Below are positions 56,174-64,000 of a stretch of 64,000 nt of DNA, one piece after another (within the stretch, counting starts at the first letter, position 1; each line of letters starts with the position of its first letter). A program made the position numbers and the translations under genes. Source of the stretch: Streptacidiphilus rugosus AM-16 (GTDB taxonomy: Bacteria > Actinomycetota > Actinomycetes > Streptomycetales > Streptomycetaceae). The stretch spans positions 3,224,001-3,288,000 of the forward strand of contig NZ_JQMJ01000004.1 of NCBI RefSeq assembly GCF_000744655.1, given 5' to 3'. The notes under the pieces were generated by a model. It saw nothing but the letters and a program-made list of their open reading frames with translations. It searched no databases and was not told the origin of the DNA.

Positions 56174-57427
56174 CTACCGGACCGGGAGCCCCGGCGCCGG
56201 GTAGGCGTCCATGAGCGCCTTGACCTCCGCGCGGACCTTGCCGATCGTCTCCTCGTCGCCGCTGCCCGCCGCGGCGACGACCCGGTCCGTCCACGCGGCC
56301 ACCGTCGCCATCTCGCCCGCCGGAATCCCGCGCGAGGTCAGGGCCGGCGTGCCGATGCGGATGCCGGACGGGTCGAAGGGCTTGCGGGTGTCGTAGGGCA
56401 CGGTGTTGTAGTTGACCACGATGCCCGCGCGGTCCAGCGCCTTGGCGGCGACCTTGCCGGGGACGTCCTTGCCGGTGAGGTCGATCAGCAGCAGGTGGTT
56501 GTCGGTGCCGCCGGAGACCAGGTCGAAGCCGCGGGCGGCCAGCTCCTCGCCGAGCGTCTGCGCGTTGGTGACGACCTGCCGGGCGTACGCGCGGAACTCC
56601 TCGCCCGCCGCCTCCTTGAGCGCGACGGCGATGGCGGCGGTGGTGTGGTTGTGCGGACCGCCCTGGAGGCCGGGGAAGACGGCGCGGTCGATCGCCTTGG
56701 CGTGCTCCTCGGTGGAGAGCAGCATCGCGCCGCGCGGGCCGCGCAGCGTCTTGTGGGTAGTGGTCGAGACGACGTCCACGTGACCGGCGGGGGACGGGTG
56801 CGCGCAGCCCGCGATGAGGCCGGCGATGTGCGCGACGTCGGCGACCAGCACCGCGCCGACCTCGCGGGCGATCTCGGCGAAGCCGGCGAAGTCGATGGTG
56901 CGCGGCACGGCCGTGCCGCCGCAGAAGATCACCTTCGGCCGCTCGGCCACCGCCAGCTCGCGCACCTTGTCCAGGTCGACCCGGCCCGTCTCCCGCTCGA
57001 CGCCGTACTGCACGCCCCGGAACCAGGTGCCGGTGGCGGAGACGCCCCAGCCGTGGGTGAGGTGGCCGCCCATCGGCAGCGCCATGCCCATCACGGTGTC
57101 GCCGGGCTTGAGGAAGGCGAGGTAGACGGCGAGATTGGCGGGCGAGCCCGAGTAGGGCTGGACGTTGGCGTGGTCCATCGAGAAGAGGGTCTTGGCGCGC
57201 TCGATCGCCAGCGACTCGACCAGGTCGATGTTCTGCTGGCCCTCGTAGTAGCGCTTGCCGGGGTAGCCCTCGGAGTACTTGTTCGTCAGGACCGTGCCGG
57301 TGGCCTCCAGCACGGCGTGGGAGACGTAGTTCTCACTGGGGATCAGCCGCAGCGTGTCGGCCTGGAGCTGCTCCTCCGCGACGATCAGCGCGGCGATCTC
57401 GGGGTCCTGCTGGGCAAGGTGCGACAT
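56174..57427 (-). CDS. glyA: serine hydroxymethyltransferase
   Basis: A 417-residue PLP enzyme that interconverts serine and glycine and loads tetrahydrofolate with a one-carbon unit. The PLP lysine is in STTTHKTLRGPRG, with SENYVS, NKYSEGYPGKRYYEG and GGHLTHGW in the N-terminal part. The ATG follows GGAGG. A ZTP riboswitch occupies the leader, so expression should rise when folate-dependent purine synthesis stalls and ZTP accumulates. The purine and folate genes folD and purH lie a few kilobases away in the same orientation. Confidence 0.97.
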   Translation of the reverse strand: MSHLAQQDPEIAALIVAEEQLQADTLRLIPSENYVSHAVLEATGTVLTNKYSEGYPGKRYYEGQQNIDLVESLAIERAKTLFSMDHANVQPYSGSPANLAVYLAFLKPGDTVMGMALPMGGHLTHGWGVSATGTWFRGVQYGVERETGRVDLDKVRELAVAERPKVIFCGGTAVPRTIDFAGFAEIAREVGAVLVADVAHIAGLIAGCAHPSPAGHVDVVSTTTHKTLRGPRGAMLLSTEEHAKAIDRAVFPGLQGGPHNHTTAAIAVALKEAAGEEFRAYARQVVTNAQTLGEELAARGFDLVSGGTDNHLLLIDLTGKDVPGKVAAKALDRAGIVVNYNTVPYDTRKPFDPSGIRIGTPALTSRGIPAGEMATVAAWTDRVVAAAGSGDEETIGKVRAEVKALMDAYPAPGLPVR

Positions 57428-57483
57428 GGCGTCCTCCGGGTCTCACTCCCTGCCGCGGCCGTCGCGGCGGGGTCCGACCCGGC

Positions 57484-57568
57484 TGCCCAGGCGTACGGCG
57501 GACCGGAGGCTGTGCCCTCGCCGCTCCCTCGGGGTTCCCTCCCCGTGCGCCAGTCGCGGCCCGGCCAG
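57484..57568 (-). ncRNA. ZTP (pfl) riboswitch in glyA leader
   Basis: Reading the minus strand from 57568, the leader has GCCGCGACTGGCGCA, then a hairpin CGGGG-AGGGAA-CCCCG, then AGGGAGCGGC closing the first stem. After a variable linker comes CCGCCGTACGCCTGGGCA. These are the hallmark elements of the ZTP/pfl motif (GACUGGCG; GGGA loop; GGGAGC; CCGCC...GCCUGGGCA). A TATCCT hexamer at 57567-57572 (minus strand) could be the -10 element placing the transcript start just before it. The ribosome site GGAGG lies about 50 bases beyond, so control may be translational. Confidence 0.92.
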
Positions 57569-57634
57569 GATAGCCGGACGGCCCGGCCGCGCGGGCGGCC
57601 GGGCCGAAGGCTGAGACGGACGGGAGGACGCGGC

Positions 57635-58867
57635 TCAGAAGGTGACGGAGGTGACGCGCAGCCCGAACGAGGCCGGTCCGGTCGACGCGCCGAAGGTGCC
57701 GCCGTCGTGGCCGGGCAGGGACCGCAGCAGGCCCCCGGTCGTTCCGTTGCCGGCCGCGCCCGCGAAGGCGGTGAGGTCGGTGGTGCCGTCCCCGGTCACG
57801 TCGCCGACGCTCCCCAGGACGTGCCGCTCGGCCCAGGCCCAGGAGCCGGGAACGGCCGTGCGCAGGGAGGAGGACACCGTGCCGTTGCCCCGGCCGGGGT
57901 AGATCCAGCCGTGGTTGGTCGCGTCGCGGACGAAGACGTCGGCCTTGCCGTCGCCGGTCACGTCGCCGACCGGAACGATCGCGGTGAGCGACTTCCAGCC
58001 GGTGCCGACCTGGCGGCGGGGCTGGAAGGTGCCGTTGCCGTTGCCCAGGTAGAGCCAGAGCTGCCCCAGGGAGTCCGTGGCGTAGAGGTCCCCGCGCCCG
58101 TCGCCGTTGAGGTCGCCCATGGCGAGGAGCCGGGTGTAGGTCCAGCCGCCGCCGATCCGCACCCGGGTGCCGAAGGTGCCGTCCCCACGGCCGGGGTAGA
58201 ACCAGAGCACGTTGGCGGCGTCGCGGGCGAGGAAGTCCTCGCGGCCGTCACCGTTCAGGTCGCCGTGCCGGGCGAAGAGGCCGTACGAGCCCCAGCCCGA
58301 GGAGATCAGCCGCGCGGGCCCGCCTGGCGCGCCGGACAGGCTCCACAGGCCGCCGATCTTGTCCCTGACCATCAGGTCGGCGTAGCCGTCGTGGTTGAGG
58401 TCGCCGAAGCCGGTCCCCGAGCCGGTGGCCGGGCGGTGCTGCGGGACGCCCGCCCAGGTGGGGTGGTAGTACGGCATGCCGCAGTCGAGCGAGTTGGAGA
58501 CGAGCTCGACCGAGCGGAGCCTGTTGTCGAACTGGTCCAGGAAGGGAATCCCACCACGGCCCGCGATGAAGTAGTCGACCGGTGCCTTCCCCGCCGTGAA
58601 ATTCTGGTTCGGGTAGCCGCACAGCGTCTTGCCCGTGTTGTTGACGAAGGAGCTGACCGCGAGGTCGAAGCTGCCCAGGGTCGCCCGGTCGCCGGTGACG
58701 ACGAGCTTGGACCCGGTGTCGCTGGTCCCGGTGAACAGGCAGAGCTGGTTGCTGCCGCAGCTGCTGGTGGCGGCCGAGGCGGGTCCGGACGCGGTCAGGC
58801 CGCCCAGCAGCAGGCCCGCGCCCAGCGCGAGTCTGGCCAGAGCCCGGCCGGATACTGAAAAACGCAC
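57635..58867 (-). CDS. Secreted protein: peptidase-inhibitor I36-like domain plus VCBS/FG-GAP repeats
   Basis: A 410-residue exported protein. GTG 58865-58867 begins a signal peptide ending PASAATSS. The next ~110 residues carry SCGSNQLCLFTGTSDTGSKL and SFVNNTGKTLCGYPN, like the peptidase inhibitor I36 fold with its cysteines. The last 270 residues are FG-GAP/VCBS-type repeats (GDLNHDGYADLMVRD, GDLNGDGREDFLARD, GDLNGDGRGDLYATD, GDVTGDGKADVFVRD, GDVTGDGTTDLTAF), calcium-binding beta-propeller blades. It may bind or inhibit a protease or a surface ligand outside the cell; the exact target is unknown. Confidence 0.85.
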   Translation of the reverse strand: MRFSVSGRALARLALGAGLLLGGLTASGPASAATSSCGSNQLCLFTGTSDTGSKLVVTGDRATLGSFDLAVSSFVNNTGKTLCGYPNQNFTAGKAPVDYFIAGRGGIPFLDQFDNRLRSVELVSNSLDCGMPYYHPTWAGVPQHRPATGSGTGFGDLNHDGYADLMVRDKIGGLWSLSGAPGGPARLISSGWGSYGLFARHGDLNGDGREDFLARDAANVLWFYPGRGDGTFGTRVRIGGGWTYTRLLAMGDLNGDGRGDLYATDSLGQLWLYLGNGNGTFQPRRQVGTGWKSLTAIVPVGDVTGDGKADVFVRDATNHGWIYPGRGNGTVSSSLRTAVPGSWAWAERHVLGSVGDVTGDGTTDLTAFAGAAGNGTTGGLLRSLPGHDGGTFGASTGPASFGLRVTSVTF

Positions 58868-58928
58868 GAGAGTGCCCCCAAGATGACGGCTGATCATCGG
58901 ATCAGCGGGCACACCCTAGCGAACGTGC

Positions 58929-60173: not shown

Positions 60174-60605
60174 TCAGCCGCCGCCGGTGTCGCTGTGCAC
60201 GAGGTCGCCGAGGCGACCCACGAGCGGCAGGTGAATCACCGGATCGGGCAGTGCGGCGAGCGCGAGCACGACGATGACCGCCCCCAGCACGCCCATCACC
60301 ACGATGTCGGTGAAACGGCTGCGCACCGCCAGCATCCCGACCTCGGGCAGCACGATCCGCAGCACCGCGCCGACGAGCATGCCGACGCCGATCGTGACGA
60401 TCCCGGCCCGCCACGCGCCCAGCGCGGTGACCAGCAGGCCCACGCCGACGAAGGCCAGCACCAGCACGATCGGCCACTGCCGCACCGGCACCGGCATGTC
60501 GCGCCCGGCGGCCGCCGAACCGCCCTCGGGACGGAACGTTCCCGTGGTCTTCACCGGCGGCCGCTGCGACGAGGGACGACGCTCAGCGCCTTCAGACGGC
60601 GGCAC
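60174..60605 (-). CDS. DUF3017-family membrane protein
   Basis: A 143-residue protein with a basic Pro/Ser-rich head of about 37 residues and four membrane segments ([64 protein letters not shown] region). GTG 60603-60605 overlaps the folD stop by 14 bp and has GGAG just before it, so the protein is translated together with FolD. An ATG 36 codons in would give the bare membrane domain. The DUF3017 protein next to folD is a conserved actinobacterial pairing; its role is unknown. Confidence 0.82.
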
Positions 60606-61446
60606 TGCGCTCCGCCGCCTCAACGACGTTCGACAACAGCATCGCCCGGGTCATCGGGCCCACGCCGCCGGGGTTCGGGGAGATCCAGCCGGCCACCTCG
60701 GCGACCTTCGGGTCCACGTCGCCGGTGTAGACGCCGTCCACACGGCTGACGCCCACGTCCAGCACGGTCGCGCCGGGACGGACGTCCTCCGGCTTGATCA
60801 GGTGCGGCACGCCGGCCGCCGCGACGATGATGTCGGCGGCGCGCAGGTGCTCGGAGAGGTTGCGGGTGCCGGTGTGGCAGAGCGTGACCGTCGCGTTCTC
60901 GCTCTTGCGGGTGAGCAGCAGGCCGATCGAGCGGCCGACGGTGATGCCGCGGCCGACGACGCAGACGTTCGCGCCGTTGAGCTCCACCTTGTGGCGGCGC
61001 AGCAGCTCGACGATGCCGTAGGGGGTGCACGGCAGCGGGGCCTCGACGTTCAGGACCAGCCGGCCCAGGCTCATCGGGTGCAGGCCGTCGGCGTCCTTGG
61101 CCGGGTCGATCAGCTCCAGGACGCGCTTCTCGTCCAGGTGCTTCGGCAGCGGCAGCTGGACGATGTAGCCGGTGCAGTCGGGGTTCGCGTTCAGCTCGCG
61201 GACGACGTCCTCGACCTGCTCCTGCGTGGCGTCGGCGGGGAGCTCGCGCTGGAGGCTGGCGATGCCGACCTGCGCGCAGTCGCGGTGCTTGCCGCGCACG
61301 TAGGAGTGGCTGCCGGGGTCGTCGCCGACCAGGACGGTGCCGAGGCCGGGGTTGATCCCCCGCGCCTTCAGCTGCTCGACCCTGGTGACGAGCTCGGACT
61401 TGATCGCTGCGGCGGTGGCCTTGCCATCGAGAATCTGGGCGGTCAT
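60592..61446 (-). CDS. folD: bifunctional methylenetetrahydrofolate dehydrogenase/cyclohydrolase
   Basis: A 284-residue enzyme that converts methylene-THF to methenyl- and formyl-THF, supplying purine synthesis. The active-site lysine is in SYVRGKHRD, the folate-binding loop is [10 protein letters not shown], the NADP loop is [13 protein letters not shown], and [12 protein letters not shown] closes the C-terminus. In most FolDs the loop reads GRSxxVG; here the serine is glycine, a minor variant. It is translationally coupled to the DUF3017 gene. No ZTP riboswitch was seen in the 190 bp upstream. Confidence 0.95.
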
Positions 61447-61636
61447 GAGGACATTCTCCCGGATCGCGGAAGCGGTTGTGTCACGGGGCCGCCGGGTCGC
61501 CGCCCGTGCACGGACCGTGCAGGTCCGGTTGCAAATGCGCCACAAGTCCCCGCCCGCCCCACAACGAGGTGGACACGGCAGGGACGGATCGGAACGATGG
61601 TGGCGTATCAGAAACGGGGACGGGTTCGGGGGGATC

Positions 61637-62104
61637 GTGAGCACTACCAGCGCGCATCAGTCCGCGCCGGGTCCACAGGTACGGCCGGGGGCACGCGCCG
61701 CGTGGGAGTACCGCTGGACGAGGATCGCGGGGGGACGCTACGGCGGACCGCTGCGGGTGCTGCTGCGCGGCAGCGGCGCCGGCGTCCTCGCCGTGGCGGC
61801 TGCGGAGGTCCACGCGACGCACGATCCGGGCGTGCTCTGTCCGCTGCGACGCTTCACCGGGATTCCCTGTCCCGGCTGCGGCAGCACCACGGTGTTCATG
61901 GAGTTGGGCGCCGGTCATCTGGGCGCGGCGGTCGCCGCCAACCCGGTGACGGTGCTGGTCGGCCTCGGCCTGCTCTTCGCGCCGCTCGGCGGCGGGAAGT
62001 GGTGGTGGCGGCTGCCGACGCGTCAGAAGAACGTGGTGATCTTCACTGCGGCGGCCGTCTCCTGGGCCTGGCAGTTGCACCGATACGGCTTCCTGCCGAC
62101 CTGA
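61637..62104 (+). CDS. DUF2752-family membrane protein
   Basis: A 155-residue protein with the DUF2752 signature [18 protein letters not shown], a pair of cysteine motifs at the start of a membrane segment. Hydrophobic segments follow ([23 protein letters not shown] and [16 protein letters not shown]). The N-terminal 40 residues are soluble and basic. GTG 61637 has a G-run directly before it. The frame is open further upstream but overlaps the divergent folD promoter region. Function is unknown. Confidence 0.85.
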
Positions 62105-62182
62105 CCGTCAGCCCTCTCCGATAATCTCACCGCTCGTCAGTACGTCACGTCCCGTCACGCATCCCTGCCCGGAGGCACGATC

Positions 62183-62875
62183 ATGAGCTACCCGCCCGAC
62201 CCGAACAACCCCTACGGCCAGCCGCAGCAGCCCAACCCTTACGGGCAGCAGCCGCAGCAGCCCCAGCCGGGTTATGGCTACCCGCAGCAGCCCCAGCAGC
62301 CCCAGCCGGGCTACGGCTACCCGCAGCAGCCGGCGGCGGACCCGTACGCGCAGCAGCAGCAGCAGCAGCAGGCCTACGGCTACCCGCAGCAGGCCCAGCC
62401 GGGCTACGGCTACCCGGTGGGGGACCCGTACGCGGGCTACGTGCAGAACGCGTACGCCGGTTGGGGATCCCGCGTGGTGGCGCGCATCATCGACACCATC
62501 GTCATCGGGCTCATCCCGTGGATCCTCCTGTTCGCGCTCGACGGTCCGTCGACGACGATCAACGCGGACGGCTCCGTCAGCAGCAACACCGCCGGCTACG
62601 AGCTGGGCGCCTTCTTCGTGAACATCCTGGTGCTGGTCGGCATCGGCGTCATGAAGGGCACCATGGGCCAGTCCCTGGGCCAGAAGGCCGTCAACATCCG
62701 TACCGTGCGAGAGGCGGACGGCCAGCGTCTGGCGGTGGGCCCGGCGATCGTGCGTGAGGTCGCCCACGTCCTCGACAGCATCTGCTGCATCGGCTACCTG
62801 TGGCCGCTGTGGGACGCGAAGAAGCAGACCTTCGCGGACAAGATCATGACCACCGTGGTCACCAAGTCCAGCTGA
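62183..62875 (+). CDS. RDD-family membrane protein with Q/P/Y/G-rich N-terminal repeats
   Basis: A 230-residue protein. Residues 1 to about 85 are repeats of the pattern PQQPQPGYGYPQQ, an intrinsically disordered cytoplasmic tail with alternating glutamine and tyrosine. The RDD domain follows with GSRVVARIIDTIVIGLIPWIL, two further membrane segments and GQSLGQKAVNIRTVREADG. RDD proteins are often transport-associated or salt-stress proteins. ATG 62183 follows GGAGG-like GGAGGCACG. The tandem DNA repeats at 62214-62410 invite slipped-strand length changes. Confidence 0.9.
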   Translation: MSYPPDPNNPYGQPQQPNPYGQQPQQPQPGYGYPQQPQQPQPGYGYPQQPAADPYAQQQQQQQAYGYPQQAQPGYGYPVGDPYAGYVQNAYAGWGSRVVARIIDTIVIGLIPWILLFALDGPSTTINADGSVSSNTAGYELGAFFVNILVLVGIGVMKGTMGQSLGQKAVNIRTVREADGQRLAVGPAIVREVAHVLDSICCIGYLWPLWDAKKQTFADKIMTTVVTKSS

Positions 62876-62895
62876 GACGCTGCCGCTTGAGCCAG

Positions 62896-62930
62896 AAGGC
62901 CCGCCGTCCCGAGGAGGAACGGCGGGCCTT
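62896..62930. terminator. Bidirectional terminator between RDD gene and purH
   Basis: AAGGCCCGCCGT (62896-62907) and ACGGCGGGCCTT (62919-62930) form a perfect 12 bp stem with an 11-base loop, flanked by A and T on both sides. It separates the convergent RDD and purH genes. Confidence 0.88.
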
Positions 62931-62970
62931 CGTCATGCCGTGGAGGTCACCGGTGGGCGACCTCGGCGGC

Positions 62971-64000
62971 TCAGTGGAAGAAGTGCCGCGTGCCGGTGAG
63001 GTACATGGTGATGCCGGCCGCCTTCGCAGCCTCCGCCACCAGGTCGTCGCGGACCGAACCGCCCGGCTGGACCACGGCCTTGACGCCGGCCTCGATCAGC
63101 ACCTCGAGCCCGTCGGGGAACGGGAAGAACGCGTCCGACGCCGCGAAGGATCCCTGCGCCCGCTCGCCGGCCCGCTGGGCCGCCAGCCGCGCCGAGTCGA
63201 CCCGGTTGACCTGGCCCATGCCGACGCCGACCGAGGCGCCGTCCTTGGCCAGCAGGATCGCGTTGGACTTGACGGCCCGGCAGGCGCGCCAGGCGAAGGC
63301 CAGCTCCGCCAGGTCCGCCTCGCCCAGCGCCTCACCACAGGCGAGGGTCCAGTTGGCCGGGTCGTCGCCGGCCGCGTCGATCCGGTCCGCCTGCTGCAGC
63401 AGCAGGCCCCCGGTGACCGCACGGGTCTCCACCGCCGGGACGGCGGGGGTGCCGCGCAGCACGCGGATGTTCTTCTTCTGGGCCAGCACCTCGACCGCGC
63501 CCGGCTCGTAGTCCGGGGCGAAGACGACCTCGGTGAAGATCGGCGCGATCTGCTCGGCCAGCGCCACCGTCACCGGACGGTTGACGGCGATGACGCCGCC
63601 GAAGGCCGAGACCGGGTCGCAGGCGTGCGCCTTGGCGTGCGCCTCGACGACGTCCGCGCCGACGGCGATGCCGCAGGGGTTGGCGTGCTTGATGATCGCG
63701 ACGCACGGCTCGGCGTGGTCGTACGCGGCACGGATCGCGGCGTCCGTGTCGGCGTAGTTGTTGTAGGACATCTCCTTGCCGTGCAGCTGCTCGGCGGCGG
63801 CCAGGCCGGTGCCGGTCCCGTCGACGTACAGCGCGGCGGCCTGGTGCGGGTTCTCGCCGTAGCGCAGGACGTTCTCGCGCTCCCAGGTGGCACCGAGGAA
63901 CGCCGGGAACTGCTCCTCGTCCTGCGGGGCGTAGCCGCCGGCGAACCAGGAGGCCACGGCCACGTCGTAGGCGGCGGTGTGGGCGAACGCCTCACCGGCC
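62971..64000 (-). CDS. purH: bifunctional AICAR formyltransferase/IMP cyclohydrolase, N-terminus beyond window
   Basis: The last 343 codons of purH; the gene enters from the right edge, so the IMP-cyclohydrolase N-terminal domain is missing from view. The visible AICAR transformylase part has [26 protein letters not shown] (catalytic lysine-histidine), [16 protein letters not shown] and the C-terminal [17 protein letters not shown]. It catalyses the last two steps of IMP synthesis, the first using formyl-THF made by FolD. It ends 40 bp before the shared terminator. Confidence 0.97.

Follow-up and report, generated by a model that had tools for sequence, protein, structure and literature searches.

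A ZTP riboswitch in the leader of a glyA gene of Streptacidiphilus rugosus AM-16, with a probable translational output

Comparison of leader sequences among relatives confirmed that a glyA gene (serine hydroxymethyltransferase) of Streptacidiphilus rugosus AM-16 carries a genuine ZTP riboswitch, for which ligand binding is predicted. In the reading that we prefer and consider fairly probable, this ZMP/ZTP riboswitch in the glyA 5' leader exerts translational ON control by means of a hairpin at the ribosome-binding site (RBS).

The aptamer and its conservation among relatives

The window, i.e., the whole 64-kb stretch of DNA analysed, was scanned with Rfam cmscan, as had been proposed in the earlier note, which claimed a ZTP riboswitch upstream of glyA. 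Among 4227 Rfam families, RF01750 (ZMP-ZTP) alone reached its gathering score, with a match at 57478-57567 on the minus strand that lay narrowly, 0.3 bits, above the cut-off (39.3 versus 39 bits; E = 0.006 over the window and all families, and E = 2.0e-4 when this family alone was searched against the whole genome). The riboswitch had previously been placed at 57484-57568, in agreement with this match to within 6 bases. Likewise, the RF01750 alignment contained all of the conserved ZTP/pfl blocks in the claimed order on the glyA strand, namely ACUGGCG (57554-57548), P2, GGGAGC, and CGCCUGGGC in L3/P3. The features of this part of the leader are as follows.

57567-57572, minus strand: -10-like box TATCCT just upstream of P1; TANNNT kept in relatives
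57478-57567, minus strand: ZMP/ZTP riboswitch aptamer (RF01750), from the cmscan score and from helix pairing and covariation in 27 relatives
57520-57560, minus strand: P1-J1/2-P2 subdomain; all counted P1 and P2 cells are standard pairs in 27 of 27
57560-57556 with 57524-57520, minus strand: P1, part of that subdomain
57553-57552 with 57528-57527, minus strand: CU/GG pairing within that subdomain
57545-57541 with 57534-57530, minus strand: P2, part of the same subdomain
57548-57551, minus strand: GGCG, 5' side of the pseudoknot; partner CGCC 57493-57490; invariant in 27 of 27
57483-57501, minus strand: P3 stem-loop (57501-57497 with 57487-57483), whose loop contains the pseudoknot CGCC; 97.0% of cells paired
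57503-57506, minus strand: linker CCGG, a possible P3 extension with CCGG 57482-57479; the four added pairs are seen in 15-24 of the 27 aligned leaders

Judged by sequence comparison, the RNA can fold as P1-J1/2-P2, a variable linker, P3, and the GGCG/CGCC pseudoknot, which together correspond to the ZTP pocket. The window copy has several non-standard pairs in P1 in the RF01750 alignment and one C.A mismatch in P3 (57500/57484), the same pair being unpaired in 3 of 27 rows. Given the thin score margin and the unexceptional single-sequence folding of the leader (z-score of -1.24), the case depends on comparison, and two sets of leaders were used. The family set consisted of 27 glyA genes of the window's clade (75-100% identity, at least 690 bits) from 91 family genomes; three loci (L099-L101) with about 50% identity and no aptamer core were excluded. 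The named set consisted of the best 80 of 545 matches in named genomes, in which the nearest relatives of glyA were five Streptacidiphilus genes at 91-92% identity and the remainder came from Streptomyces and one Wenjunlia. The two sets overlap, as six named records (L109-L113 and L138) have leaders identical to family rows. ACUGGCG and CGCCUGGG were present in the leaders of all 27 family genes, and the aptamer core was found in 75 of the 80 named relatives; one of the five named leaders lacking it (L132) was cut by the contig end, and the other four had no L3 motif within 300 nt. At the level of genomes, RF01750 scored over the cut-off in 14 of 14 genus members (source genome included), and in 160 of 200 family genomes and 117 of 296 class genomes under stricter filters by which weak matches are lost.

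In the alignment of the 27 family leaders, 99.3% of the aptamer helix cells were paired and two-sided changes occurred at 7 of 21 pairs, including three pairs of the P1 helix and two of P2. None of 500 shuffles reached any of the measures, and slid helices paired at only 41-50%. The P1-J1/2-P2 and P3 helices are backed by covariation over these 27 sequences, and the pseudoknot forms four of four pairs in 27 of 27 leaders, an invariance that leaves covariation nothing to test. The four pairs by which the linker CCGG could extend P3 displayed no two-sided change in the 27 leaders, so the extended P3, unproven by covariation, is retained as a plausible reading. A fortuitous fit of G+C-rich DNA to the covariance model, to which the 0.3-bit margin and the modest folding z-score might point, is extremely improbable: the core recurs in both sets of relatives, the helices covary, the match occupies the correct strand and position before glyA, and the next site in the genome scores 13.6 bits lower. 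The conservation of the core among relatives led us to reject this explanation.

A conserved box also precedes the aptamer. Of the 27 family leaders, 26 carry TANNNT at a distance of 18-29 nt upstream of ACTGGCG, where shuffles would give 2.3; all 75 named leaders with a core have it at 18-25 nt, against 5.9 expected. This conservation suggests that transcription starts near P1, and the glyA transcript therefore probably begins just before that helix. A scan of 57300-57700 for consensus sigma-70 promoters returned no promoter, and a -35 box was not identified.

The hairpin at the ribosome-binding site and the direction of switching

Directly after P3, the leader contains a strand complementary to the RBS region, giving the following putative expression platform.

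57476-57482, minus strand: anti-RBS strand CCGGGUC, directly after P3; 7 bp with 57442-57436, covarying
57436-57442, minus strand: GACCCGG, strand of the sequestering hairpin on the RBS side; shares two G with the Shine-Dalgarno (SD) sequence
57433-57437, minus strand: SD GGAGG, with a 5-nt spacer to the ATG at 57427

When the SD neighbourhood was searched, 22 of the 27 family leaders had a contiguous helix of at least 7 bp between the two arms, whereas shuffled arms would give 0.8; in the other five, the contiguous helix was shorter than 7 pairs. Those 22 keep the helix even though the L3-to-SD spacing in this set ranges from 30 to 61 nt. In the named leaders, a contiguous helix reached at least 5 bp in 60 of 66 (19.3 expected) and at least 7 bp in 27 (1.2 expected). 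The named set was here reduced from 80 loci to 66: nine had an L3 but an SD outside the pattern (eight read GGAAGG), and in five the 260 nt before glyA contained no L3 (one of these was cut by the contig end). In the 27 aligned leaders, 85.6% of the hairpin cells were paired, with a covariation of 0.111; 0 of 500 shuffles reached either value, and slid versions of the hairpin attained at most 58.8% pairing and a covariation of at most 0.051. Two-sided changes occurred at four of eight pairs, such as the replacement of GGGUC/GACCC by GGCUC/GAGCC in two leaders (L092 and L094). Shuffles matched the observed number of two-sided pairs, two-sided cells, and pair types in 8, 6, and 15 of 500 cases, respectively, and three slid versions had two-sided changes at three pairs versus the observed four; therefore, covariation supports the hairpin more weakly than it supports the aptamer. 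When cognate arms were compared with swapped arms, 16 of 10000 permutations reached the observed value in the family set (92 of 10000 for its 25 unique pairs) and 0 of 10000 did so for 43 unique pairs of the named set, in tests that are inflated by the relatedness of the leaders. The minimum free energy (MFE) structure of the window leader contained the hairpin; in the family set, 18 of 27 MFE structures had it at 4 or more of its 7 pairs and 9 lacked it. The hairpin covers just two to three SD bases.

Since a helix at the SD is conserved and covaries, and a scan of 57300-57700 limited to terminator-like sites found none, the output of the riboswitch is probably translational, through hiding and freeing of the RBS. 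We infer from the riboswitch class and from physiology that ligand would open the RBS. Under this ON model, the hairpin CCGGGUC/GACCCGG would form without ZTP and hinder 30S loading. When 10-formyl-THF runs low, the AICAR transformylase (PurH) would stall, and ZMP/ZTP would accumulate and bind. The ligand would then lock P3 and the pseudoknot, and P3 would claim the bases at its own 3' foot, including via the linker CCGG. The hairpin would thereby be weakened, so that glyA could be translated and supply 5,10-methylene-THF from serine.

Two other accounts of a genuine ZTP aptamer were weighed against this translational ON switch. One places the output at transcription, by Rho or some other premature stop, and takes the hairpin to be incidental. 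Predicted terminators overlap many pfl RNAs according to a passage of PMC2864571, and the ZTP switches described in passages of PMC10085676 and PMC7337938 use an invading strand or a terminator; this account nevertheless sits poorly with the terminator scan, within its scope, and with a covarying helix of at least 7 bp that ends within the SD in most family leaders, and we regard it as unlikely. The other account is that the element is an OFF switch or has locally decayed. Thermodynamic folding with forced aptamer or hairpin helices made neither switching direction evident. By ViennaRNA, in which neither pseudoknot nor ligand contributes energy, the mean SD accessibility was 0.39 in free leaders and 0.40 with the aptamer helices forced, and the energy of the forced ON state minus that of the OFF state, likewise calculated with neither term, had a median of 0.7 kcal/mol, i.e., approximately equal states. 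Forcing the aptamer left mean SD accessibility unraised because the hairpin is compatible with the core 5-bp P3; the P3 extension, which would exclude the hairpin, is without covariation.

It was also observed that the window's linker reads CCUCCGG (57503-57509, minus strand), a perfect complement of CCGGAGG at the glyA RBS. In the aptamer-forced fold of the window leader, this linker (57509-57503) pairs with the SD region, leaving the SD unpaired at 0.03 versus 0.49 when free. As modelled, it would close the SD in the bound state, which is the opposite of what an ON switch requires. A ligand-locked P3 might stack on and favour the adjacent and compatible RBS hairpin, or the anti-SD linker of this strain might shut the RBS in the bound state, and the P3 mismatch and the low RF01750 score would be in keeping with this account. 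Set against it, an OFF switch makes little physiological sense, given that GlyA would relieve the shortage signalled by ZTP; the members described in a passage of PMC2864571 raise expression with ligand; the pseudoknot bases are intact; and CCUCCGG occurs in just two of the 27 family linkers, those of the window and L079, and in 0 of 66 named leaders within the 22 nt before CGCC. Taken together, an OFF or decayed element appears quite improbable.

glyA among its paralogues and other one-carbon genes

56174-57427, minus strand: glyA, serine hydroxymethyltransferase, 417 aa (NCBIfam NF000586, 554 bits versus a cut-off of 335)
60592-61443, minus strand: folD (NF010789, 497 bits), with no detectable ZTP riboswitch

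The gene downstream of the aptamer had been called glyA, and the NF000586 match bore this out, the ATG at 57427 and the SD GGAGG at 57437-57433 fitting well; 50 nt separate the end of the Rfam aptamer (57478) from the ATG on the same strand. Upstream of glyA lies an ORF (57635-58912, minus strand) for a 425-aa FG-GAP-repeat protein with a peptidase-inhibitor I36 domain. The source genome (9.0 Mb, four contigs) contains three glyA homologues, the other two being 50% and 42% identical to that of the window. The copy at 50% identity follows gcvT and gcvH, and a glycine riboswitch (RF00504, 47.5 bits) lies ahead of gcvT. The riboswitch, gcvT, gcvH, and this second glyA occupy one stretch (G000:C4:6226675-6229825, L104), and their order and spacing suggest that gcvT-gcvH-glyA forms one operon and transcript. 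The third copy (42%) had no ZTP match listed and adjoins a gene with weak, below-cut-off similarity to WecA. By protein search, the window's glyA clade was found in 27 of 91 family genomes, including 11 of the 14 genus members; in family genomes without the clade, the best glyA match was far weaker and, among the matches listed, about half identical. Being one of three glyA genes, and of a clade found in 27 of 91 family genomes, the window's glyA has the look of a dedicated isozyme, not of "the" glyA. With another glyA behind a glycine riboswitch, the signals to which these two serine hydroxymethyltransferases respond appear to differ, and the isozymes could be controlled separately for one-carbon supply and for glycine breakdown.

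We give an even chance to a broader proposal: that Streptomycetaceae evolved a translational ZTP switch, built from the 3' foot of P3 and the SD hairpin, for a dedicated glyA isozyme while a paralogue came under a glycine riboswitch, two RNA sensors splitting one reaction between one-carbon supply and glycine disposal.

The remaining one-carbon genes were searched for the same riboswitch. A single folD (at E<=1e-5) and a single purH were matched in the genome, and purN and purH were identified by eye from translation. No RF01750 match was obtained in the folD stretch 60500-64000 even at E<=10, nor did the purN-purH region immediately beyond the window give one at the gathering score. The whole-genome RF01750 search, which scored 150 of 3229 first-look candidates, listed 19 sites at E<=10, of which only the glyA site was over the cut-off; the next reached 25.7 bits. 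An RF01750-visible ZTP switch at folD or purH of the source genome was rejected on these region and genome searches. Hence, glyA is the only ZTP-controlled gene detected by RF01750 here. The surmises of the earlier note that folD lacks a ZTP riboswitch and that glyA may be the main controlled step, together with its call to inspect the purH leader, were answered in its favour as far as RF01750 sees, with the qualification that this is one of three glyA genes.

Elsewhere in the genus, the ZTP riboswitch was seen before other genes. In 10 of 14 genus genomes it precedes a second FolD gene (40-45% identical to the window folD; L009, L010, L011, L013, L014, L016, L017, L019, L023, and L033); the source genome has neither this gene nor its riboswitch. 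At three loci (L015, L024, and L026) it precedes a 385-aa ORF with 31-32% identity to a portion of the partial PurH in the window; the one tested (L015) matched the AICARFT/IMPCHase family (Pfam PF01808), and these ORFs are predicted to encode a stand-alone AICAR transformylase-like paralogue. Methyltransferase-like ORFs, an unexpected target, follow it at five loci (L018, L031, L035, L036, and L037); Pfam Methyltransf_11 was found in the two tested (L031 and L036), and L018, L035, and L037 resemble L031 by eye. One further match (L030) had no clear gene.

Comparison with known systems

The original ZTP riboswitch paper is reportedly that of Kim, Nelson, and Breaker. Among the literature matches listed, the titles and opening lines of abstracts mentioned neither a translational ZTP platform nor a Streptomyces or Streptacidiphilus glyA preceded by a ZTP riboswitch. 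A passage of PMC2864571 lists glyA as one of the five genes to which the pfl motif is most frequently linked and infers increased expression with ligand from terminators; a Herbaspirillum paper (PMC7011215) contains both "ZTP riboswitch" and "glyA." ZTP switches acting by an invading strand or a terminator are described in passages of PMC10085676 and PMC7337938, in comparison with which the hairpin described here, backed by covariation, is a candidate translational platform for a ZTP switch.

The window element resembles RF01750/pfl RNAs in its P1-J1/2-P2, linker, P3, and GGCG/CGCC pseudoknot and in its position upstream of glyA. It departs from the RF01750 consensus in having GGGG/CCCC as P2, a C.A mismatch in P3, and GAGGGAGC where the consensus has CGGGGAGC. 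In contrast to the many RF01750 members with predicted terminators in a passage of PMC2864571, its output looks translational. With the ZTP-glyA leaders of Streptomyces and Streptacidiphilus it shares the same aptamer, a similar anti-RBS helix, and the same -10-like box, but differs in its linker CCUCCGG, which L079 alone shares among the family 27. Like the glycine riboswitch RF00504 before gcvT-gcvH-glyA, it stands ahead of a serine hydroxymethyltransferase gene group, although the ligand class and the isozyme (50% identity) differ. The two loci offer a testable case of a genome in which two riboswitches with different ligands precede paralogous genes whose products catalyse the same reversible reaction. 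Knowledge of the ZTP aptamer itself is unchanged: the window riboswitch is an ordinary member of the known ZTP class with a lineage-specific output hairpin.
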